A DNA stretch of 64,000 nt from the NCBI GenBank assembly GCA_020832285.1, contig JAFIFB010000094.1:1-64000 (forward strand), in the 5' to 3' direction. Below are positions 25,580-37,306 of the stretch, in pieces. This DNA comes from Balneolaceae bacterium (GTDB lineage Bacteria; Bacteroidota; Rhodothermia; Balneolales; Balneolaceae). The notes under the pieces are model-generated. The model saw only the letters and a list, made by a program, of their open reading frames with translations, searched no databases and was not told the DNA's origin. Both the position numbers and the translations under genes were made by a program. How positions within the stretch are numbered: position 1 is the first letter of the stretch; every line of letters starts with the position of its first letter.

Positions 25580-25642
25580 TTTTACAAATAGTGTGTATTT
25601 GGGCTTTAATCAACGATATTTGCGTTTACAAACTCTCCCGTA

Positions 25643-25834
25643 AATCCCCTCTTGAGAGGGGACAGATTTGAGTAAGATCGCGAAGCGAGTCTTTCAAAAA
25701 TCAGGGGTGTGTTTGCATGGGCAAGGAACCTGAAACGAATACGGTTCACGATCAAAGCTATGGAACACACCCCTCGCTAAACTCACCCGGTTTCGCCGTT
25801 TCGTTTACGCTTTTCCCCTCTCAAAGAGGGGATT
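25643..25834. repeat. Long imperfect inverted repeat
   Basis: The outer arms at 25643-25662 and 25814-25834 are reverse complements with one inserted base; each arm is itself palindromic (CCCCTCTTGAGAGGGG at left). Inner segments around 25704-25720 (AGGGGTGTGTTTG) and 25760-25775 (GGAACACACCCCT) also pair. The whole unit sits between the two copies of the duplicated hairpin element. Confidence 0.65.
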
Positions 25835-25841
25835 ATAGAGC

Positions 25842-27115: not shown

Positions 27116-30100
27116 ATGAAATTTGAGGCCAGGACCGTACGCAACACCATCAACAAAGCTTTTCTGAAAGAGCCGATTGAGCGAAAGAAATTTGAGGCCT
27201 TTAAAGAAGCACTGGGAAAACTGCTAAGTGGCATAGAACAATCGGAGAAAGCGGAAGAGCGCGAAGAGCATTTCAAAAATCTGCTGCCGCCATTTTTTAA
27301 ATCGATTGGGTTTGGTGATTACAAGATCAACACCAGCAGCAATATCGACCTGGCCATATATACCGGCAGCAAGACCAAAGATCCGCTCGGGGTGATGATG
27401 GAGGTGAAACGTCCTTCCAACAAATCCGAGATGATCTCCAAAGAGCGGCTGAACCGCAAGGCTCTGCACGAAGCGGTGCTCTATTACCTGGAACAGCGGA
27501 TTGACCAGGGGAACGATGACCTGAAACACGTCATCATTACCGACATGACCCATTGGTACATCTTCGATGCCCAGGAGTTCGAGCGCTGCTTTTACCGGCC
27601 ATCGACGCTTCGAAAAGCCTACAAAGAGTGGAAAGAGAACCGAAAGGTCTCCTCCAATACCGACTTTATGTATAACGAAATCGCATCCTTCATCAGTGAG
27701 AGTGATGCAACCATCAGCGGCGTAAGCCTGCCGCTGAAGCCGGTGGCCAAACTGTTGAAAGGGAAAGAGGGAAGCGATTATGAAAAGCGGCTTATTTCTC
27801 TCTACAAGTTTTTTTCACCGATTCACTTGCTCAAAGAGCCTTTTTCCAACGACAGCAACAGCCTGAACAAAGAGTTCTACCGTGAGTTACTTTACATTCT
27901 TGGCCTCGAAGAGACTAAACAAGGGAGTACCCGCTATATACAGCGTGCAGGTGAAGATAACCGGCACAGCGGTTCGATCATCGAAAACACCATTCGCATT
28001 CTGGATTCCGAAGACCACCTCTCAACGTTAAAAAATGCACGAAGCAGTTACGGAGCCAACCGCGACGAACAGCTCTTCAGCGTGGCAATAGAGCTGGGAA
28101 TCACCTGGATGAACCGCGTTCTGTTTCTGAAACTGCTGGAAGCGCAGCTCTACCGTTACCACCGGAAAGACAACCGCTTTAAATTCCTGAATTACGGCAC
28201 CATTGACGGTCTTGATGAACTCAATAAACTCTTTTTCCAGGTTTTGGCGCGGAAAGAGAACGACCGATCGGCGGACGTCAACGAAAAGTTCGGCCATATT
28301 CCGTTTCTGAACAGCTCTCTGTTTGATGTCTCCTCACTGGAACACCAAACCACACGCATATCCGGGCTGGACGATCACGCGGAAATGCCTGTGTACAGCA
28401 AAAGTGTGCTGACCGACACCCGCGGCAAAACAGTGAACACGCTCGATTACCTGTTCCGGTTCCTGGAAGCGTACGATTTCTCCGCTGAAGGATCCGAAGA
28501 GATTCGCGATGAGAGCAAGAGCCTGATTAACGCCTCGGTACTCGGGCTGATCTTTGAAAAAATCAACGGCTACAAAGATGGCTCGTTCTACACGCCTGGC
28601 TTTATAACCGAATATATGGCGCGGGAGACGTTGAGGAAGGCGGTGGTGGATAAGTTTGTAGAAGCCTTTTCTGCCCTCTCCCCTTCGCCCCTCACCCGCG
28701 GGAGAGGGGTTGGGGAGAGGGCAGAAAAAGGCGATGAACGCGGCATGTCGGCCTCTGAACCCTTGAAGAAACTCCCTGAATCCCTCCTCGCAAACGCACG
28801 TCATTTACGTAAAAACCAGACCGATGCCGAAGAACTGATGTGGCAGCTGCTTCGCAAAAAACAGTTACAAGGATTAAAATTCAGGCGTCAACACCCGATT
28901 GAAGAGGGCTTTATTCTCGACTTTTACTGCCATGAAAAGAAATTGGCGGTTGAACTGGACGGTGCGTACCACAACACGGAAGATCAGAGAGCTTCCGATG
29001 AAGAAAGAGAGCAGTTTTTAAACGATATCGGCGTGCGGGTTATTCGCTTTTCGAATGAGGAGGTTATGGGGGATGTTGAGACAGTATTGAAGCGTATTGC
29101 CTCTTCGGCCCTCTCCCCTGCACCCCTCTCCCGCGTGATTGGGGACGGGGGTGAGGGCGAAAAAGGACAGGAAGCCATCGCTGAGCTAACCTTCACGGAA
29201 ATCTACAACCGCATCGGCCGCGATATTTCCATCGCCGAAGCCAATAAACTCATCAACTCCATCACTATTTGTGACCCCGCTGTGGGGTCTGGCCACTTTT
29301 TGGTGAGCTGCCTGAATGAACTGCTGGCGATTAAAAGCGAACTGGGTATTTTATGTGACGAAGAAGGAAAAGTGCTGCGGGATGTGACGGTAGAAGTGGA
29401 GAACGACGAACTGATCGTCAGCCAGGGTGAAGAGCTGTTCGAGTATGACGTCAGCCACACCTGGAGCGGCACCAGGCTGAAAAGCCGCAAAATTGCCCCT
29501 GACAAACAGCGCATCCAGAAAACCCTGTTCCGTGAAAAGAAACACCTGATTGAAAACTGCCTGTTTGGCGTGGACATAAACCCAAACTCGGTGAAGATCT
29601 GCCGGCTGAGGTTGTGGATTGAGTTGTTGAAGCGTGCGTACTATTCCGTCACACCGCAGAGCCCTCTCTCTAACTCTCTACCAGGGAGAGAAAGGACTGG
29701 TGAGGGCGGCGGGCACCTCGAAGTCCTCCCCAACATCGATATCAACATCAAACAGGGCAACTCGCTGGTGAGCCGGTTTGAGCTGGACAGCGATTTAAGC
29801 ACCGTTTTTAAAAACAGCAACCACTCGCTGGAAGATTACAAAGAGGCGGTACGCTCCTATAAGCAGACGGGCGACCGCAACGAAAAAGCCGACCTGCAGA
29901 AGCTGATTGACAACATTAAAGATGAATACACCACCACACTCACCAACCTCCGTCCGATTAACCAGAAACTCTCCAAAGCGCGGGGACGGATGGAGATTAT
30001 GCAGAGCGACGACCTTTTTGGCGAGGTGAAGTTCAGCAAAGAGGATATTGAGAAGCAGAAGAAAAAGCTGAAAAAGCTGGAAGTGGAAAAGGCCGGGGAA

Positions 30101-31345
30101 GAAAGCGGCACGTTTTACAACCAGGCGTTTGAGTGGAGGTTTGAATTCCCCGAAGTGCTGGACGATGATGGGGAGTTTACCGGGTTTGATGTGGTGATTG
30201 GGAATCCGCCTTATATACAGTTACAAAAAAATAAAGGGGAATTGGGTGATATATATTCGAATTTAAAGTATGAAACATACTTCAAGACTGGTGATATTTA
30301 TTGTCTTTTTTATGAAAGATCTTGGCATTTGCTAAGAGATAAAGGGATGCTTTCATTTATAACTCCAAATACATGGCTACAATCATTTTCATTTGGACCG
30401 TTAAGAAAGTTTCTTGTAAACAGATATATATGGAAAAAGATTTTATTAACTGAACAAGTATTTGATGAAGCAGTAGTTGATACGCATTGTATTATTTTTG
30501 AAAAAGGAATAAACACAGGAATTTGTGAAATATTCGAAAGAGTTGGTGTAGAAATTGTTTATTCACATTTCGTAAAAAATGAAAGTTTATCAAAAGATGG
30601 TGATTTAATAAATATTGAAATAACTAATAATGTTCGGGAAATTTATGATCGGATCATAAAAGAAAATAAAACTTTAGATTATTACTGTAATGTTTTTAAT
30701 GGTGTAAAACCGTTCGAGAGAGGAAAAGGTAAACCACCCCAAACTAAAGAAATAATGAAGTCTAAACCTTTTGTTAAAAAAGGAGAGAAACCAGATAATA
30801 ATTGGCAACCATTATTACGTGGAAGTTTGATACAACGATATGAAAATTTGTGGGACTCTAATTATTGGATTAAATATGGAGAGTGGCTTGCGGCTCCAAG
30901 GAATTCCAAGATTTTTGAAGCTGATAAGAAAATAGTCGTAAGACAAACCGGAGATGGAATTATTGCTACTTTAATTGGTAAGGATATTATTTGTAGAGAT
31001 AATTTGCATATAATTTTGTTAAAGAACTCAATTAACTTAAAGTTTTGTTTGGGGATCCTAAATTCGAAATTGATTGATTTTATTTATTCAATTTTAAATC
31101 CGGAAAAAGGCGAGGCATTAGCCCAAGTTAAGAAAAGTCATTTGGTACGTCTGCCAATAGCAACTGGTAAGCCGGAAGTAGAGAATTCTATAACTTCATT
31201 GGTTTCAAAAGTTTTAGAAGATAAAAAACAAAATCCCGAAGCTGACACCAGCAAACTGGAAGCTGAGATTGACCGGTTGGTGTATGAGTTGTATGGGTTG
31301 AGTGAGGAGGAGATTGGGGTTGTGGAGGGGAATATAGAACAATAA
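27116..31345 (+). CDS. Type IIG-like restriction-modification enzyme with in-frame DUF559 insertion
   Basis: This 1409-residue fusion combines nuclease, adenine methyltransferase and DNA-recognition functions. Near the N-terminus a PD-(D/E)xK nuclease site appears (Asp78 in NIDLAIYTG, Glu96-x-Lys98 in VMMEVKRP). A helical region leads to the methylase: motif I DPAVGSGHF at about residue 720, motif IV NPPYIQL at about 1030. The C-terminal third is the specificity domain, ending in a coiled-coil-like EAEIDRLVYELYGL. Two features are odd. Residues about 517-683 are an inserted segment carrying a DUF559 endonuclease domain between palindromic repeats, and residues about 848-864 encode a further palindrome. 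The specificity domain (from about 30.2 to 31.2 kb) is much more AT-rich than the rest. The HEPN gene starts three bases after its stop. Confidence 0.88.
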   Translation: MKFEARTVRNTINKAFLKEPIERKKFEAFKEALGKLLSGIEQSEKAEEREEHFKNLLPPFFKSIGFGDYKINTSSNIDLAIYTGSKTKDPLGVMMEVKRPSNKSEMISKERLNRKALHEAVLYYLEQRIDQGNDDLKHVIITDMTHWYIFDAQEFERCFYRPSTLRKAYKEWKENRKVSSNTDFMYNEIASFISESDATISGVSLPLKPVAKLLKGKEGSDYEKRLISLYKFFSPIHLLKEPFSNDSNSLNKEFYRELLYILGLEETKQGSTRYIQRAGEDNRHSGSIIENTIRILDSEDHLSTLKNARSSYGANRDEQLFSVAIELGITWMNRVLFLKLLEAQLYRYHRKDNRFKFLNYGTIDGLDELNKLFFQVLARKENDRSADVNEKFGHIPFLNSSLFDVSSLEHQTTRISGLDDHAEMPVYSKSVLTDTRGKTVNTLDYLFRFLEAYDFSAEGSEEIRDESKSLINASVLGLIFEKINGYKDGSFYTPGFITEYMARETLRKAVVDKFVEAFSALSPSPLTRGRGVGERAEKGDERGMSASEPLKKLPESLLANARHLRKNQTDAEELMWQLLRKKQLQGLKFRRQHPIEEGFILDFYCHEKKLAVELDGAYHNTEDQRASDEEREQFLNDIGVRVIRFSNEEVMGDVETVLKRIASSALSPAPLSRVIGDGGEGEKGQEAIAELTFTEIYNRIGRDISIAEANKLINSITICDPAVGSGHFLVSCLNELLAIKSELGILCDEEGKVLRDVTVEVENDELIVSQGEELFEYDVSHTWSGTRLKSRKIAPDKQRIQKTLFREKKHLIENCLFGVDINPNSVKICRLRLWIELLKRAYYSVTPQSPLSNSLPGRERTGEGGGHLEVLPNIDINIKQGNSLVSRFELDSDLSTVFKNSNHSLEDYKEAVRSYKQTGDRNEKADLQKLIDNIKDEYTTTLTNLRPINQKLSKARGRMEIMQSDDLFGEVKFSKEDIEKQKKKLKKLEVEKAGEESGTFYNQAFEWRFEFPEVLDDDGEFTGFDVVIGNPPYIQLQKNKGELGDIYSNLKYETYFKTGDIYCLFYERSWHLLRDKGMLSFITPNTWLQSFSFGPLRKFLVNRYIWKKILLTEQVFDEAVVDTHCIIFEKGINTGICEIFERVGVEIVYSHFVKNESLSKDGDLINIEITNNVREIYDRIIKENKTLDYYCNVFNGVKPFERGKGKPPQTKEIMKSKPFVKKGEKPDNNWQPLLRGSLIQRYENLWDSNYWIKYGEWLAAPRNSKIFEADKKIVVRQTGDGIIATLIGKDIICRDNLHIILLKNSINLKFCLGILNSKLIDFIYSILNPEKGEALAQVKKSHLVRLPIATGKPEVENSITSLVSKVLEDKKQNPEADTSKLEAEIDRLVYELYGLSEEEIGVVEGNIEQ
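28667..28728. repeat. Left palindrome of the DUF559 cassette
   Basis: The arms at 28667-28683 and 28712-28728 (TTTTCTGCCCTCTCCCC and its complement) pair perfectly over 17 bp; an inner CCCCTC/GAGGGG stem around CCCGCGGG extends the hairpin. It is translated in frame as part of the restriction enzyme. Confidence 0.9.
29102..29164. repeat. Right palindrome of the DUF559 cassette
   Basis: A diverged relative of the left palindrome: GGCCCTCTCCCC at the left end, GGGGGTGAGGGC at the right end, and CCCCTCTCCCGCG in the middle. Pairing is imperfect, consistent with an older or partly decayed copy. Confidence 0.75.
29661..29707. repeat. Solo palindromic in-frame insertion
   Basis: GCCCTC (29661-29666) pairs with GAGGGC (29702-29707), with an inner CTCTC/GAGAG stem. 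It is translated as a Ser/Pro/Gly-rich stretch (about residues 848-864) between TPQS and HLEVLPN, where the methylase sequence needs no such insert. It resembles the two cassette palindromes but carries no gene. Confidence 0.65.
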
Positions 31346-31348
31346 AGC

Positions 31349-32602
31349 ATGAATTATTTCGGAAAGCAAGATTTTGTTATAAAGGGGTTAAAGCTAAAGC
31401 ATGATGGCTATATGTTTGATGGTCATGGCTTTATGGAGTGGCATCCTGATAATGGCTTCGAACTAAAGCTCTTTGTTGAAAATGACCAATATAAACCATC
31501 AAAAAACAAAAAGTTTGGTGGTTACAAAATCATTAAGGATCGTGATAGGACTGATGTAAACTTAATGCTTGATGGTTATAAAAGGGCAATAGTTCCCTCT
31601 ATAAATATTATAAATACATTAAGCTTTGAAATAGACCGTGTATTGCAATTAAAATGTAACAGGTTACTTTTTTTCGAAGATATTTTTGTGGCCGATGGTG
31701 AATATTGGACAGGTGGTGCCTTATATCGAATTACAAATTCGAATTATAACTTTCCAGACACTTTAAAAAGAATAACAAAGCATGGAGATACAGAGGTAGA
31801 AAGATGTTCGGAAGCGGGAGGTATTTATTATGAAAATCAACACTTACAAATTAGAGTCCGGAAAGAAAGAAAGGAATATCTAAGGGTTACATTCAAGATT
31901 AGTAAAGAAAAATATTCACAGCAATTTGCACTAAAATTTCCTTGTGGGCTTCAAACAGCTTTAACATTTATTTTAGGAGAAACCGTACAACGATTAAGGT
32001 CAGAAGTTGACTGTGAAAACAGTACGGTGATTGAAGTTTTTAAAATTTCTGATGTAAAAAGATTGAAAAATTATCAGGCCTTGCAAAGCTTCAAAAACTT
32101 TAATTCTGAACTGCTGGTGAACCTAAGTGAATTTTTTACATTTGGTTACATAAGTACAGAAAAGTACACCGAGTCTTATGTTGGCAAATTAATCTTATCG
32201 CAATTAGTTGAAGCGGAAAACCAAATAAGCAGAACATCACAAGAATTATTAACAGCAACCATTCTTGAGGCAGCATTAAGGACAATATACGGTGTCCCTT
32301 TTTTAGAAGAAGGTAAAAGTAAATTTGATGTTTCTTATTACCTAAAAAATGAATTTATACCTCAATACTCAGATGGCAAAAAATGGAGAGTAGTAAGAAA
32401 AGAAGTCATAAAAGCATTTGAAAGAATGAGACATCGAAATGCACACCCCGACTGGTTGATAAAAGAAGATGACGTCTATTCTGATAATCGTGCTTCTGAT
32501 ACCTATTTAGATCTGAGGATTATGATTAAATTTTACCAGCAAATGATACTACTGATGGCTGGAATTAAAGATGTAAAACCTGAACTACCTAACAAGATTT
32601 AA
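31349..32602 (+). CDS. HEPN-domain protein, ApeA-like candidate
   Basis: The 417-residue protein follows the restriction-modification gene by three bases and is AT-rich like the island. Its C-terminal region contains RHRNAH (Arg361 to His366), which fits the HEPN RNase consensus R-x4-6-H, set among helices (LLTATILEAALRTIYG, WRVVRKEVIKAFERMR, YLDLRIMIKFYQQMILLM). The N-terminal half is beta-rich (GYMFDGHGFMEWHPD onward) and resembles, by layout only, the N-terminal domain of ApeA-type abortive-infection proteins. Most HEPN proteins in such islands cut RNA to stop phage growth. Coupling to the restriction gene suggests either a backup effector or a modifier; this is inference. Confidence 0.6.
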   Translation: MNYFGKQDFVIKGLKLKHDGYMFDGHGFMEWHPDNGFELKLFVENDQYKPSKNKKFGGYKIIKDRDRTDVNLMLDGYKRAIVPSINIINTLSFEIDRVLQLKCNRLLFFEDIFVADGEYWTGGALYRITNSNYNFPDTLKRITKHGDTEVERCSEAGGIYYENQHLQIRVRKERKEYLRVTFKISKEKYSQQFALKFPCGLQTALTFILGETVQRLRSEVDCENSTVIEVFKISDVKRLKNYQALQSFKNFNSELLVNLSEFFTFGYISTEKYTESYVGKLILSQLVEAENQISRTSQELLTATILEAALRTIYGVPFLEEGKSKFDVSYYLKNEFIPQYSDGKKWRVVRKEVIKAFERMRHRNAHPDWLIKEDDVYSDNRASDTYLDLRIMIKFYQQMILLMAGIKDVKPELPNKI

Positions 32603-32913
32603 TAAATATTATTCCCTTTAACACTCCAATTTGGTGAGAACTAACTGAACTAAAAGCCAAGATAGACCAGATCGAATATGAGTATATTGCTTAATTGAGG
32701 AGGGGATTGAGGTCGTGGAGGGGATGTACTTTGATTCACAATGATTAGAATTCCTTAATGCACGGGTTTTATGAAATTTCTGTAAGTGAGATGAGGATTT
32801 AATAAATTCTCACTGGACATGTAATAAATATGTGTAACACCTTTCATATTTCACTCTCCGGTAAGAGATTCGAGAAAAATCAAATGCGCAAAATTTAAAC
32901 GAGATTATATAAC
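32603..32913. other. Intergenic region with gene debris
   Basis: Apart from the broken restriction-type C-terminus at 32638-32744, the stretch is AT-rich and gene-free. Confidence 0.6.
32638..32744 (+). pseudogene. Remnant of a restriction-modification C-terminus
   Basis: Two frames together resemble the last residues of the intact enzyme upstream: ELTELKAKIDQIEYEY in one frame up to the stop at 32692, then LIEEGIEVVEGMYFDSQ in the frame shifted by one base. The intact gene ends EAEIDRLVYELYGL and EEEIGVVEGNIEQ. The match in order, spacing and position after the HEPN gene suggests a decayed paralogue or an exchanged tail. Confidence 0.55.
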
Positions 32914-33192
32914 ATGATTGATTTATATACATTGAATGTTGATAAGATACGATACATTGAAGTAAAGACTTCTATATCCCAATTAAGTTTTTTCAACACC
33001 GTTTATGACACCGGTGGCCAATTATGGAAAGTTAAGGATGGTATGGTATTTATTAATGAAATGTCAATCACAAGGCATCCGAATGAAGGCTATAAATCTA
33101 CATGGAAATCTGTAGTACCGTCAGAAGTAGCCAAAGAAATTGTTATCTATGATTGGCCGCTTAAAAATGAATTAAAAAGAATAATTCTTTAA
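32914..33192 (+). CDS. Hypothetical protein in defence island
   Basis: A 92-residue reading frame with a normal-looking composition (IDLYTLNVDKIRYIEVKT at the start, VVPSEVAKEIVIYDWPLK near the end). I do not recognise the family. No signal peptide or membrane segment. It lies between two broken genes; it may be a small partner protein or itself a fragment. Kept as a gene because the frame is open from a good ATG and has beta-alpha-like alternation. Confidence 0.5.
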   Translation: MIDLYTLNVDKIRYIEVKTSISQLSFFNTVYDTGGQLWKVKDGMVFINEMSITRHPNEGYKSTWKSVVPSEVAKEIVIYDWPLKNELKRIIL

Positions 33193-33532
33193 CTCTTTAG
33201 TTCCACTTTATAAAAAAGGCCAGATCGTCAACCTTTTGAAATCACTCAACAATCCCGCTGTTCAGGGTGTGGTTGCCGTATACGACAAAGAATCAAATCG
33301 AGAGAATCAGAGAACATGCCATAGAAGTCACCGACCTGCAGGATAAAGAAAAACTCTGGGACTGCCAGGAAGTCCTCACCGTCCACGAAAACCTGGAATA
33401 TGTGAATGAGAGTATTATTAAGCTGGATTTGGTGCCGGGCATCCAATTGGGAGGTGCCGAGTGAGTTTTGAAACTTTTAAATATGAGTTTATATAGGGAT
33501 TGATTGAGGAGACTGAAGTTGCGGAAGATGCA
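33193..33532. other. Stretch between the 92-residue gene and the Trypco2 gene
   Basis: Occupied by remnant copy A and, from 33479, a second restriction-type tail fragment. No intact gene is present. Confidence 0.6.
33195..33464 (+). pseudogene. Recurrent remnant, copy A (VHENLEYVNESI family)
   Basis: Coding-like sequence with a frameshift. The first part reads LVPLYKKGQIVNLLKSLNN and PAVQGVVAVYDK, then the frame shifts to QIERIREHAIEVTDLQDK, EKLWDCQEVLTVHENLEY and VNESIIKLDLVPG, stopping at 33462-33464. The second part is closely similar to sequence at 37336-37491 and distantly to 37853-37936. I do not recognise the parent protein. Confidence 0.6.
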
Positions 33533-33544
33533 TTAACTCGATGA
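33479..33544 (+). pseudogene. Second fragment resembling a restriction-modification tail
   Basis: One frame reads KYEFI, a TAG, then GLIEETEVAEDALTR before a TGA. This recalls VYELYGLSEEEIGVVEG at the end of the intact restriction enzyme. The match is short and uncertain, but it lies directly after remnant copy A and overlaps the 3' end of the Trypco2 gene. Confidence 0.3.
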
Positions 33545-33886
33545 AGATAACTCTTTTTCACTCACTGTAGTTACAGGTGGAACTAACGGAATTGAAAATT
33601 GGATACGACTTACGTGCCCAGTTTCTTCATCCTTCACACGACCACCCCCAATATCAATTCCCATCACTTTAATACCTCCTTTATAGTTATCTGAAGCCTT
33701 ATCTGATACTGTAACAGCAATGTCAAATTTAACATCTTTGATATGAGTACTGTTTACATCATTTGCGGATCCCCATACCGGATTGATAACACCATTCGTA
33801 TTTGATTCTTTACAAGAGTTAATGGCTTCTTGTACTCCCTGTTGGACTTCAACCAAGGTTTCTTTAATGAATTCTTTGATTTCCAT
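33533..33886 (-). CDS. Trypco2 (trypsin-co-occurring domain 2) family protein
   Basis: The 117-residue protein has an N-terminal helix (IKEFIKETLVEVQQGVQEAI) and then a beta-rich domain with DVKFDIAVTVSD, GGIKVMGIDIGG and SRIQFSIPLVPP, the strand pattern I associate with Trypco2, a domain found next to trypsin-like proteases and other effector modules in bacterial conflict systems. No protease gene is visible here, so the partner may be lost or elsewhere. It is 38 bp downstream of the DUF3892 gene on the same strand. Family assignment is by pattern memory and should be verified. Confidence 0.62.
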   Translation of the reverse strand: MEIKEFIKETLVEVQQGVQEAINSCKESNTNGVINPVWGSANDVNSTHIKDVKFDIAVTVSDKASDNYKGGIKVMGIDIGGGRVKDEETGHVSRIQFSIPLVPPVTTVSEKELSSSS

Positions 33887-33924
33887 GTTGGATGATATTT
33901 ATAGTTTAAGTTTAGACAAAAAAT

Positions 33925-34179
33925 CTAACAATCCGGCAATTCCAAAAGATTATTCCTTTCAGTCTTATCCCGATCAGTACGCAAATATTTACCATTTGCA
34001 CCATTAACTACATGGATATCCACTTCATCGAAACCGATTCTTACATAGTATCTATATGTTTTATTTTCGATTTCACGAATTGCCTGTGAAGTGCTTACCG
34101 GGGACCACCATTTAGTGCTGTTGCAAATTGCCGTAATTACGCCATCTTCTTTTTTTGTAGAAGTGATTTGTCTTTTCAT
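33925..34179 (-). CDS. DUF3892 domain protein
   Basis: The 84-residue protein is almost entirely one DUF3892 domain: ITAICNSTKWWSPVST, AIREIENKTYRYYV, VDIHVVNGANGKYLRTD and NNLLELPDC are its conserved blocks in order. The domain's role is unknown; it is common as a small stand-alone protein in accessory regions. It precedes the Trypco2 gene and is divergent from the sce7726-sce7725-RES operon, with about 110 bp between it and the remnant at 34292. Confidence 0.82.
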   Translation of the reverse strand: MKRQITSTKKEDGVITAICNSTKWWSPVSTSQAIREIENKTYRYYVRIGFDEVDIHVVNGANGKYLRTDRDKTERNNLLELPDC

Positions 34180-34291
34180 AAAAATTTAGTTTATTAATGA
34201 TTAATAATATGTACAAAATATGTTCTGAAACAGCAAGTTAGGGTTTGTTAATAATATGCAGGTAACCTTTTACCCAAAACCCTGAAACATT

Positions 34292-34402
34292 ATGGAGAAA
34301 GAGAAAGCTTGTGGTGGTTCCTGGACGGAGAAGAAGCTGGATGCGTTTGAGCAATGTAACACTGAAAAATTTTCCTTACTTTTAAGAAAAATACAGACTT
34401 AA
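34292..34402 (+). pseudogene. Short remnant resembling a three-Cys-motif partner (TcmP) N-terminus
   Basis: A 36-codon frame reads ACGGSWTEKKLDAFEQC before losing similarity. The WTEKKLDxFE pattern is typical of the N-terminus of TcmP-type methyltransferase-like proteins, which occur in defence loci. What follows is not similar, so I treat it as a truncated relic directly upstream of the sce7726 gene. Confidence 0.4.
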
Positions 34403-34409
34403 TCTTAGC

Positions 34410-35291
34410 ATGGGCCACAGTTATCAAAATAGTACTGATGTAAGCATGTCGATCTCAGGCGTCTTTTCCAACTCGCATTTCAAGAATGTACTTGATAAAG
34501 GTTATAGTCCCTATATTGATAAAAAAATTGAGAGGCTTCAGGGGGTTTTGCCAATCGGGAAAGAGGAAAGCCGAAAACAAGCTCTTGAAACCATGTATAA
34601 CCATTTGTTAAAGAAGTACCGTTGTGAGTACATTTATAAAAATTTCATCACTCAAAAAATTTTACTTGGCAGACATAGCCTTAACACCTCTACTTTAATC
34701 AATGAATTCAGAGTGGGATCATCTGTGGCAGATGTAGTGTTGATTAACGGAAAGTCCACCGTATATGAAATTAAAACGGAACTGGATAATCCCGATCGGT
34801 TGCGAGACCAGCTTTCTGATTATCAAAAGGCATTTACTGAAATCTATCTCGTTGTTCATTATTCCTGTATTGATACTTATATGGAAAAATTGAATGGCGC
34901 AACTATCGGGCTTATTGCACTTAATAGACGCAACCAGCTTTCCGTAAGAAAAGAAGCAATATCGAATATCAATCACTTAGACACCACCACAATGTTTAAA
35001 TCACTCCGTAAGCAAGAGTATTCCAACATTATTAAAAAAGTCTATGGGTATGTTCCTGATGTTCCAAACATGTTCTATTTTAAAGAGTGCTTAAGACTGG
35101 CTAAAAGAATGGATGCAGTCGATTTCAATAAAATGATGGGGGAAGAGTTGAAAAAACGAAAACCAAAAGAGAAAGAAATTGCGGGTTCAAACAAAATCCC
35201 TGACTATTTACGAAATATATGTTTGGCGATAGATCCCACACGAAATGAATACCAACGCCTGTTTCACTACCTGAACCAAACAATCCATTAA
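34410..35291 (+). CDS. sce7726 family protein (putative PD-(D/E)xK nuclease)
   Basis: The 293-residue protein matches the sce7726 family by the block EFRVGSSVADVVLINGKS followed by TVYEIKTELDNPDRLRDQL. Glu99, Asp108, Glu120 and Lys122 form a plausible PD-(D/E)xK nuclease site, with ELDNPDRLRDQLSDYQKAF as the helix behind it. The C-terminal half is helical and basic (GEELKKRKPKEKE). Its stop abuts the sce7725 start (35291/35292), so the two are co-translated; the RES gene follows. Family function is not established. The fixed order with sce7725 and the island context suggest a defence role. Confidence 0.82.
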   Translation: MGHSYQNSTDVSMSISGVFSNSHFKNVLDKGYSPYIDKKIERLQGVLPIGKEESRKQALETMYNHLLKKYRCEYIYKNFITQKILLGRHSLNTSTLINEFRVGSSVADVVLINGKSTVYEIKTELDNPDRLRDQLSDYQKAFTEIYLVVHYSCIDTYMEKLNGATIGLIALNRRNQLSVRKEAISNINHLDTTTMFKSLRKQEYSNIIKKVYGYVPDVPNMFYFKECLRLAKRMDAVDFNKMMGEELKKRKPKEKEIAGSNKIPDYLRNICLAIDPTRNEYQRLFHYLNQTIH

Positions 35292-36236
35292 ATGTACTTA
35301 CCATACCTGAGAGGCAAACAATTTGAATTGATTGCGTTGCGCGAATTGGCAGAATCCATGGGAGAGACAGGAGTTATTCATCCCGTTATTGAGCCGGTCA
35401 AAGAATCCATATCAACACTCCGGCTAACCGTTGAGCAGCTAAAAGAGCATAATGTCACTTTCACAATCATCATCAATCCTGACGTAGGTGATTTTTCAGA
35501 TGATCATCTACCGGTTGCAGAATTTATTGACGAATATGTTGTGGATTACAATGAATTTAATGTTGGAGTTCTTCTCCAGCAAAACACTGATTTAGGGATC
35601 CTCGAAGCCTACTTGAATAATTTAGAGCATGATTATTCAATCAATGTAATCCATAAGGGAAGATTTCCGGATATGGATTGGTTGCAGAATTTTTTGGAGC
35701 AGCAGTCGGTTGGATATAACCTGTTTAGAGATCCAACCGTGATTCGTAGATACAGGAGGTTGATTGATAACACAACGAAAGTAATTTTGAGCGATCCATT
35801 TAATACTCAACCTACAAATGCTGATTATGCGAATAATACAGACGAATTTTTTTCGGATGAACATAATTTTTATGAAGAGGACGGGTTCTTAGGTTTTTCT
35901 GATTACGTAACTATTGGGGAGGACTATTCAGATGGCGGTTTTGCTCCCTATGCCGTTGCTATTCATTTGACGTATGAAAAAGACAAAGGGCAAATTTGGA
36001 TTCGCCATTTTGTATCAGATACAAACGAGGATTATACCGATGTGCCTGGAACGTACAGTGAGGCTCTTAAAAAACTGATCGAGTATATAGATATACACCA
36101 AGAGAAGTTTAATACAGTTGCTTGTAATGAATTCAGGGAACATTATAGAACCGGTCATTACCCGGGTTTGGGTAGTGTAAAGAAACTCTCCATCAAACAT
36201 CACATCGAACTGATCACCTCCATTCTGACACGATGA
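35292..36236 (+). CDS. sce7725 family protein
   Basis: The 314-residue protein begins MYLPYLRGKQFELIALRE, the signature of the sce7725 family, and continues with VIHPVIEPVKESISTLRL, which suggests an alpha/beta barrel-like fold. Near the end it has IWIRHFVSDTNEDYTDVPG and HYPGLGSVKKLSIKHHIE, also conserved in the family. No transmembrane or signal segment. It is wedged between the putative nuclease and the RES-domain gene, overlapping the latter by four bases. It may be the target-sensing component; this is inference only. Confidence 0.82.
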   Translation: MYLPYLRGKQFELIALRELAESMGETGVIHPVIEPVKESISTLRLTVEQLKEHNVTFTIIINPDVGDFSDDHLPVAEFIDEYVVDYNEFNVGVLLQQNTDLGILEAYLNNLEHDYSINVIHKGRFPDMDWLQNFLEQQSVGYNLFRDPTVIRRYRRLIDNTTKVILSDPFNTQPTNADYANNTDEFFSDEHNFYEEDGFLGFSDYVTIGEDYSDGGFAPYAVAIHLTYEKDKGQIWIRHFVSDTNEDYTDVPGTYSEALKKLIEYIDIHQEKFNTVACNEFREHYRTGHYPGLGSVKKLSIKHHIELITSILTR

Positions 36237-37306
36237 AATGTTGCGCGAACTGCTTCGATGATATTGAACTCACCGGGTTTATTATTTCCAATTCAACCGA
36301 AACAGGGGATTGTGATTTTTGTGGTTCAAAAAACACAAATTTAATTGATCCAAGGGAATTTGAAGAGAAATTTTTACTGTTAATAAATGTCTATGTACCT
36401 GTTATTGAATCAAATTTAGATGGAGTAGAACCGGCACTTCTTCATGAAAAACTACAGAAAGAGTGGGGTATTTTTAGTGAAAAAATAAACGCTGATGAAA
36501 CAGTAGATCTTTTAAAGAATATTTTAGGCGATATTTTTGATGGCGATGATGCTCTATTTGATGCGCCTGTTGAGAGAAAAGTAGTTTTGTTTGATCTTGA
36601 TGAAGCAGATGTTTTAGAGAAGGAATGGGATAAATTTGTTCATGAGATAACATCAATAAATAGATATTTTTTAGGAGAACAGATTGACCTTAAGTTATTA
36701 GAGAATTTGTTTCGTAACCATGAAAAAATCTATAGCAAGGGAAAATTGTTTTACAGAGCCAGAATATCTGATAAAAAAGGGTTTGAGCTTAATGAAATGG
36801 GAAAACCACCAGCCAAAAATAGTGTTTCGGGTCGTGCCAATCCTGTAGGAATACCTTATCTATATGTTTCAACAAATAAGGACACAGTATTGTATGAATC
36901 CAGGGCAACCCATTTAGATTTCATTACAATTGCGGAGTTCAAGCTTAAAGAAAGATTAAATGTCGTACAACTACGACAAATAGAAAATTTAAGCCCGTTT
37001 ACACATGAGGATAAATTAGAAGACTACCTTAAATATCAAAAATACATTAAACGACTTGAAATAGAGCTATCGAAACCCCTTCGGAGACATGATCGGAAAC
37101 TTGAATATCTGCCCACCCAGTATCTGTGTGAATATGTTAAATCACTTGGATATGATGCGATTGAGTATGGAAGTTCACTTCATGATGGTGGAGTGAACCT
37201 AGCCATTTTTAATGACGATAAATTAGAAGGAAAAAATGTTGAGGTTCATGAAGTTGTATCAGTAGAGTTGGATACAGAGGTTGTAAATCGTGAATTAGTT
37301 AATTAA
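36233..37306 (+). CDS. RES-domain protein with zinc-finger/HEPN-like N-terminus
   Basis: The 357-residue protein starts with a cysteine cluster (CCANC, GDCDFCGS) that looks like a zinc finger, then an acidic helical region (about 45-165) as in the HEPN/RES N-terminal family, then a RES domain. RES features are LFYRARI, the SGRANPVGIPYLYVS block and the ESRA motif; the pattern R-E-S residues define NAD-degrading toxins (RES/Xre pairs). Unlike toxin-antitoxin loci there is no Xre partner; instead the gene overlaps sce7725 by four bases. A plausible effector that depletes NAD when the upstream pair senses invasion. Confidence 0.8.
   Translation: MKCCANCFDDIELTGFIISNSTETGDCDFCGSKNTNLIDPREFEEKFLLLINVYVPVIESNLDGVEPALLHEKLQKEWGIFSEKINADETVDLLKNILGDIFDGDDALFDAPVERKVVLFDLDEADVLEKEWDKFVHEITSINRYFLGEQIDLKLLENLFRNHEKIYSKGKLFYRARISDKKGFELNEMGKPPAKNSVSGRANPVGIPYLYVSTNKDTVLYESRATHLDFITIAEFKLKERLNVVQLRQIENLSPFTHEDKLEDYLKYQKYIKRLEIELSKPLRRHDRKLEYLPTQYLCEYVKSLGYDAIEYGSSLHDGGVNLAIFNDDKLEGKNVEVHEVVSVELDTEVVNRELVN

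Follow-up and report, generated by a model that had tools for sequence, protein, structure and literature searches.

A DUF559 nuclease domain bounded by palindromes and inserted in frame in a type IIG restriction enzyme: a probable non-splicing, homing-type mobile element

A block of DNA located at 28664-29173 (plus strand) of the window, which is the whole 64,000-nucleotide stretch analysed here, lies inside a restriction-modification gene and leaves its reading frame open. This block most probably represents a resident copy of a mobile nuclease element of the homing type, which is bounded by palindromes, preserves the frame of its host and does not splice; solo palindromes would be its non-autonomous relatives. 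Sequence comparisons placed such in-frame units in many unrelated genes, detected homologues free of the insert as well as solo palindromes at the same and other sites, and indicated that palindrome sequences and nuclease lineages vary together, with no splicing domain recognized in the element.

The host ORF (27116-31345, plus strand) encodes 1409 amino acids and is open along its full length. Pfam assigned the domains DUF7149, DUF7814, Eco57I methylase and TaqI_C to it, and PADLOC identified it as a type IIG REase-MTase. A complete DUF559 domain (Pfam, E=2.8e-34) was detected within this ORF at residues 558-662 (28784-29098, plus strand), with a Vsr/EDxHD fold and the conserved residues RRQ, DF, ExDG, H, D and R. 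The domain is preceded by a left palindromic unit (28664-28731), which is a nested palindrome, and followed by a right palindromic unit (29099-29173), neither of which is assigned to a strand. The arms of the left palindrome (28667-28693 and 28702-28728) are 85% complementary, and the outer arms of the unit (28667-28683 and 28712-28728) are perfect over 17 bp; its folding as DNA gave z = -6.7, with none of 200 shuffles as good. The folding of the right palindrome was weaker (z = -2.1, 8 of 200 shuffles). The two units form a 75-bp direct repeat with 75% identity at a spacing of 435 bp, exactly 145 codons, and they are also inverted repeats because each end is palindromic. The coordinates of the whole element are a best estimate, corresponding to approximately 163 extra codons when compared with empty homologues, and the borders are fixed to within several codons since the host loops vary too. 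The initial annotation of this DNA, made from the letters alone, had described an uninterrupted restriction-modification frame, a complete Vsr-like DUF559 domain in an additional block, and two related C/T-rich palindromes, the left one with 17-bp perfect arms, all of which agreed with the present analysis. The location it gave for the block (28667-29164) was right to a few bases, while the extent was slightly too narrow.

A third, weaker palindrome, solo and in frame, was located in the same ORF at about 29661-29709 (no strand assigned), where it encodes SPLSNSLPGRERTGEGGG; its fold (z = -0.8) was no better than that of shuffled sequences. Palindrome-derived inserts were present in this loop in several homologues. 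No further copies of the exact palindromic unit of the window were detected in the source genome at E<=0.01, and a strict-pattern scan of that genome matched the left unit alone. Downstream of the enzyme, the region 31349-37306, containing a gene for a RES-domain protein (36233-37306) together with ORFs without a Pfam match, is a possible defence island; the ORF at 34410-35291 gave a weak PADLOC match to 'cll'.

The alleles of the restriction enzyme were surveyed by searching 92 genomes of the same family with the two flanks of the enzyme joined. The enzyme was found in 25-30 places, where most of the matches were contiguous with identity of up to 82%, and the homologues at 77-82% identity did not have the DUF559 block. 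The homologues lacking the insert, which the initial annotation had proposed to look for, thus exist and bracket the block. The number of residues between RETLRK and DPAVGSG was 54 in the empty alleles, 217 in the window protein and 72 in the congeneric genome G047, in which a single in-frame palindrome closely matching the right unit of the window occupied the site of the enzyme without DUF559. The full unit was present at the same site in G018, G065 and two Algoriphagus genomes (L212 and L224). As full units occur in several lineages, the solo palindrome of G047 is most simply read as what probably remained after the direct repeats had recombined and the rest of the unit was lost. In Lunatimonas, DUF559 was located elsewhere in the same enzyme family, inside DUF7149. 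The synonymous sites were saturated between the copies of the window and G065, and the insertion in the window enzyme is therefore old. The three nearest copies at this site (window, G065 and G018) are all old, so that, instead of being active, the window copy may have been inherited and domesticated. A tree in which all copies at this site form one clade was rejected (p-AU 0.0006), in part owing to a copy from a different site of that gene, which nests within the clade. The loop after KRAYY of the restriction-modification enzyme also holds unrelated palindromes, and nuclease-free palindromic repeats in frame were observed in a loop of this enzyme at L102 and L103.

The occurrence of DUF559 was much wider than this enzyme. 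The domain was present in 65 of the 92 genomes of the source family, and matches were found in 171 of 296 genomes of the phylum. All three DUF559 genes of the source genome, namely the copy in the restriction-modification enzyme, a second located between hsdM and hsdS, and a third with a frameshift, sit amid C/T-rich palindromes. The in-frame hosts in the source family included PheRS-beta (G040), HemF as an N-terminal fusion and HemD as a C-terminal fusion; PheT was uninterrupted in 12 of the 13 genomes checked, the nearest empty one being 90% identical to that of G040. Across the phylum, in-frame hosts confirmed with the aid of Pfam were LeuRS (two sites), MetH, RecG, methylmalonyl-CoA mutase, a UvrD-type helicase, HsdR, HsdM, HisF, RNase H and an M23 peptidase. 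When every species was represented by a single genome, the scan also yielded MnmE (Runella, L209), other sites of MetH (Stagnimonas and a Chloroflexota MAG), an HrpA-type helicase (HrpA/DUF3418, two sites), a Mur ligase domain protein and type ISP enzymes, with carriers in Bacteroidota, Pseudomonadota, Chloroflexota, Cyanobacteria and others. The palindrome-DUF559-palindrome unit sought by the initial annotation in unrelated genes was thus found many times, in frame and across phyla, and close relatives without the insert were present where checked (LeuRS, PheRS and the window enzyme). Neither a palindrome-free DUF559 domain in all homologues of the enzyme nor a lack of palindromes at other DUF559 genes was observed. 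The palindromes appear in translation as linker peptides, for example SPSPxGRG or PLPLGEGxGEG; the trait of Rickettsia palindromic elements (RPE), a palindromic element read in frame in unrelated genes, was present. In a rough count over the matches listed, a sample not designed for this purpose, DUF559 in ORFs of at least 290 codons accounted for about 6% of the matches in the source family and for around one third in the rest of the phylum. In the domains embedded in MetH, RecG, MCM, LeuRS and M23, the N-terminal motif YMTADPxxY or YMTGGNNSHL often directly preceded DUF559 (L185, L147, L171, L181, L200, L163-L166, L168, L170 and L313-L328), which suggests a DUF559 lineage specialised for living within proteins.

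The phylogeny of DUF559 mixed the host genes. A clade of 34 sequences (support 97) comprised copies from LeuRS (two sites), RecG, MetH, methylmalonyl-CoA mutase, a UvrD-type helicase, M23 and PurL. The M23 copy nested among the MetH copies, and the HrpA copies at two sites were sisters. Patchy occupation of a single site with empty alleles present was found for both LeuS and the restriction-modification enzyme. Site 1 of LeuRS was surveyed in one family with 199 genera sampled, and about 165 of the 195 genomes counted had a contiguous site, while in about 30 it was interrupted, in part by DUF559 and in part by other palindromes. Parsing of 46 alleles gave 26 empty ones, 9 with DUF559 and 11 with shorter inserts. 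All 26 empty alleles had an identical 45-nt gap, and the insert length was a multiple of three in 19 of 20 cases, consistent with the frame-preserving length for which the initial annotation had suggested a check. Nine changes were needed on the LeuRS tree for nine carriers. Independent invasion of the LeuRS site was unsupported, as a tree uniting the LeuRS copies in one clade was not rejected (p-AU 0.11), and loss of the element could also explain the patchy distribution.

The same loop of LeuRS also takes unrelated palindromic repeats. Since the loops of both LeuRS and the restriction-modification enzyme accept unrelated palindromes, they are permissive, and shared sites alone are no proof of homing. 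Nuclease-free repeats in frame were observed at LeuS site 1 in L291, L310, L314, L315, L317, L331 and L333; the peptides encoded by the nuclease-free repeats in the two loops are like SEAKQS, HSELVSES, LKQVQHD and HAELDTES, and they represent distinct repeat families that occupy these permissive loops as well.

These observations bear on a narrower version of the preferred explanation, namely true homing at conserved targets, in which an empty allele is cut and the element is copied into it by gene conversion, as for inteins and group I introns. The homology to an EDxHD homing endonuclease, the patchy occupation of one site in different genera, and the position of sites next to highly conserved motifs (VKGDVHDIGKN of MetH, Walker A of HsdR, RecG, and FTTRPDTIFG of LeuRS) are in favor of it. 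However, tolerance of the LeuRS loop, in which unrelated palindromes are found, could by itself explain the shared sites, and vertical descent plus loss is compatible with the LeuRS data at the above p-AU. Moreover, closely related copies were found in separate genes and also at separate positions within a single gene, a pattern that site-specific homing would not produce by itself. We thus regard strict homing as possible but doubtful.

More recent movement was suggested by the genome G017 (L050), in which two DUF559 copies with 99.8% identity over 537 bp were separated by 3.25 kb and had different flanks; the ends read TCAATCCTCCTG...CAGGGAGATTGA. No target-site duplication was apparent at these near-identical copies, the single recent duplicate examined. 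The two elements bracket a purU-like gene and mnmE (2956-6019 of L050), and MnmE is the host gene in Runella. Solo units were also found in other genera: matches to one unit numbered 22 in G022 and 11 in G023, among them some fragments and two copies flanking a DUF559 gene. In the window, an intergenic pair of C/T-rich hairpins without DUF559 was observed at 25640-25840 (AAATCCCCTC..GAGGGGACAG ... GGGGTGTG / ACACACCCC ... TCCCCTCTcaaAGAGGGGA). This subtype flanks DUF559 genes in congeneric genomes (L061, L065 and L067), and the pair is likely a non-autonomous copy. The search for carriage by phages gave three weak matches only, and the plasmid matches were below 60% identity.

The association between the palindromes and DUF559 was examined by two tests, adopted because a first-round hairpin score, applied without composition or arm filters, had separated the flanks only moderately from controls. 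In the motif-free test, the 250-bp flanks on either side of DUF559 were compared for a shared exact match of at least 12 bp. Such a match was found for 64% of the loci in the source family, 48% in the phylum set, which was deliberately enriched for in-frame cases, and 64% in all bacteria, whereas the corresponding values for control window pairs from the same loci were 1.9%, 0.8% and 3.9%. In the second test, perfect hairpins with all-pyrimidine or all-purine arms of at least 7 nucleotides were searched for at 217 loci. The upstream flanks were positive in 69%, the downstream flanks in 55% and both sides in 47%, when compared with 3.7% of the control windows and about 0.14% expected by chance on both sides. 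About half of the loci had no recognisable pyrimidine-armed hairpin on at least one side, and the palindromes of older insertions were partly decayed. The palindromes were similar within DUF559 clades and different between them (Mantel r=0.345, permuted maximum 0.063), and this remained the case once pairs with similar distal flanks, corresponding to orthologous loci, were removed (r=0.293, permuted maximum 0.073). The arms varied between lineages, yet their complementarity was kept. Shared descent could partly cause this co-variation of ends and nuclease. That an unusual lack of stop codons pre-adapts the palindromes to in-frame insertion was not supported, as 2.44 of 6 frames were open compared to 2.16 in shuffled and 2.55 in random sequences.

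The results of these tests are pertinent to another explanation, that the short palindromes are MITE- or REP-like repeats moved by a different enzyme and that DUF559 is passive cargo caught between two copies, in the style of a composite transposon. Indeed, solo units outnumbered those flanking DUF559 in one genus, both ends may consist of entire, directly oriented units, and nuclease-free palindromes in frame were also present at the LeuRS loop. Nevertheless, the passenger that recurs in phylum after phylum is DUF559, and the palindrome sequence can be predicted from its lineage. Cargo picked up at random would show no such co-evolution with the ends, which makes this explanation unlikely.

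The nuclease domain itself was predicted with a mean pLDDT of 84.6. VIA-align of the predicted structure gave Z scores of 16.0 to NGO0050 (3HRL), 11.5 to the catalytic domain of I-Bth0305I (3R3P) and 10.1 to Vsr (1CW0), and the sequence profile matched 3HRL (8.2e-32) and 3R3P (2.1e-5). The residues of active-site type (RxQ, DF, E..G, H, D and R) were invariant in 48 sequences including in-frame copies. By profile, fold and conserved catalytic-type residues, DUF559 belongs to the Vsr-EDxHD superfamily, and the comparison with homing endonucleases made in the initial annotation gains weight from 3HRL and I-Bth0305I being the closest solved relatives. Where synonymous sites were unsaturated, dN/dS was 0.03-0.08 in host genes and standalone genes alike, indicating that the domain is under purifying selection and is therefore kept functional even inside LeuRS or the restriction-modification enzyme.

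Such selection would also be expected of an accessory domain domesticated by restriction enzymes, in which DUF559 had been fused for additional nicking or cleavage and the palindromes were incidental linker repeats. Restriction-modification genes are common hosts (HsdR, HsdM, type IIG and ISP), and the second DUF559 gene of the source genome lies between hsdM and hsdS. On the other hand, the palindrome-DUF559 unit was also present in LeuRS, PheRS, MetH, RecG, MnmE and others, most of the close homologues of the window enzyme were without DUF559, the position of DUF559 within this enzyme family was not the same in Lunatimonas, and the palindromes tracked the DUF559 lineage rather than the host gene. 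Domestication as the general explanation is thus quite improbable.

Removal of the block as an intron or intein, or its skipping by the ribosome, is hardly credible in spite of the essential host genes and hairpin boundaries, because the reading frame runs through with the linker peptides in frame in translation, 19 of 20 LeuRS inserts are multiples of three in length, contradicting bypass, Pfam scans of the host ORFs found no intein/Hint splicing domain, and Rfam found no intron in the 64-kb window, where two tRNAs were the sole matches; the block is neither intein nor intron, as the initial annotation had put it.

The palindrome-bounded, homing-type nuclease element thus remained the preferred explanation, and the proposal of a mobile, frame-preserving nuclease element with palindromic ends was supported, its mobility being deduced from comparison. 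We infer the following scheme for its nuclease activity, cut site, target, direction of copying and mechanism of movement. A full element consists of a DUF559 reading frame with the Vsr/EDxHD fold between two C/T-rich nested palindromes (arm-hairpin-arm), and the nuclease would be produced either within the host protein, as one of its internal domains, or by itself as a small protein. It may act on the cognate palindrome or on the palindrome-free allele, and the element may then be copied in by strand transfer or break repair, in which the palindromes would serve as ends or as homology. The lineage-specific palindrome would be the likely substrate or recombination partner of the nuclease. Insertions in coding genes would persist in tolerant loops when the frame is kept and the host protein works with the extra domain. 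Unequal recombination between the direct in-frame units may remove the nuclease so that a single palindrome is left behind, a course of events suggested by G047.

On balance, it is more likely than not that these units constitute an undescribed class of mobile elements which reside in frame in host proteins, some of them essential, and do not splice. They would then also be the autonomous origin of at least some of the widespread CCCTCTCC...GGAGAGGG-type palindromic repeats in bacterial genomes, with a palindrome specific to each nuclease lineage. As a family, the nuclease is already known, since a 2022 paper placed a cyanobacterial DUF559 gene in the EDxHD family. A literature search on DUF559, palindromes, in-frame insertion, homing and Bacteroidetes, with preprints and most subscription papers outside its scope, found no description of such an element, and the novelty of the palindrome-bounded DUF559 element is provisional. 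Mobile elements entering conserved genes are expected to splice out; the DUF559 element instead persists as an extra domain in aminoacyl-tRNA synthetases, recombination helicases and metabolic enzymes. It offers a candidate for the enzyme that mobilises palindromic repeats inside and between genes, which is testable in that each nuclease lineage predicts its own palindrome. The element also suggests a possible route of domain gain by proteins, and its insertion sites point to loops of essential proteins that are naturally permissive.

Several known systems resemble the element in part. I-Bth0305I (PDB 3R3P) is an EDxHD homing endonuclease (Taylor et al. 2011, as cited in PMC9403480 and PMC3943268), described in the latter as a mobile-intron protein with extended DNA-binding regions and a target of nearly 60 bp. 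Its catalytic domain is homologous to DUF559 by the profile and structural matches above, and fixed sites in host genes are patchily filled in both cases. Unlike I-Bth0305I, the DUF559 element has no intron or intein, and its catalytic domain of about 105 amino acids is fused in frame and bounded by palindromes. The RPEs, approximately 150 bp in length and described without a nuclease (PMC10969869), share with the DUF559 element the insertion of a palindromic element in frame in unrelated protein-coding genes and its translation within the host protein. The full DUF559 element differs in carrying a conserved nuclease, whereas the solo palindromes resemble an RPE-like state. Vsr of E. coli and NGO0050 share the fold and conserved residues with the DUF559 domain of the window, but Vsr is a standalone repair enzyme that nicks mismatches, and the DUF559 unit is a bounded element. 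RAYTs are transposases of the IS200 type. The REPIN/RAYT system (PMC3116915) is similar in that short palindromic repeats track a dedicated enzyme gene and many copies are solo. The enzyme of the DUF559 element is instead a nuclease of the Vsr fold, and its units are often located within coding sequences.
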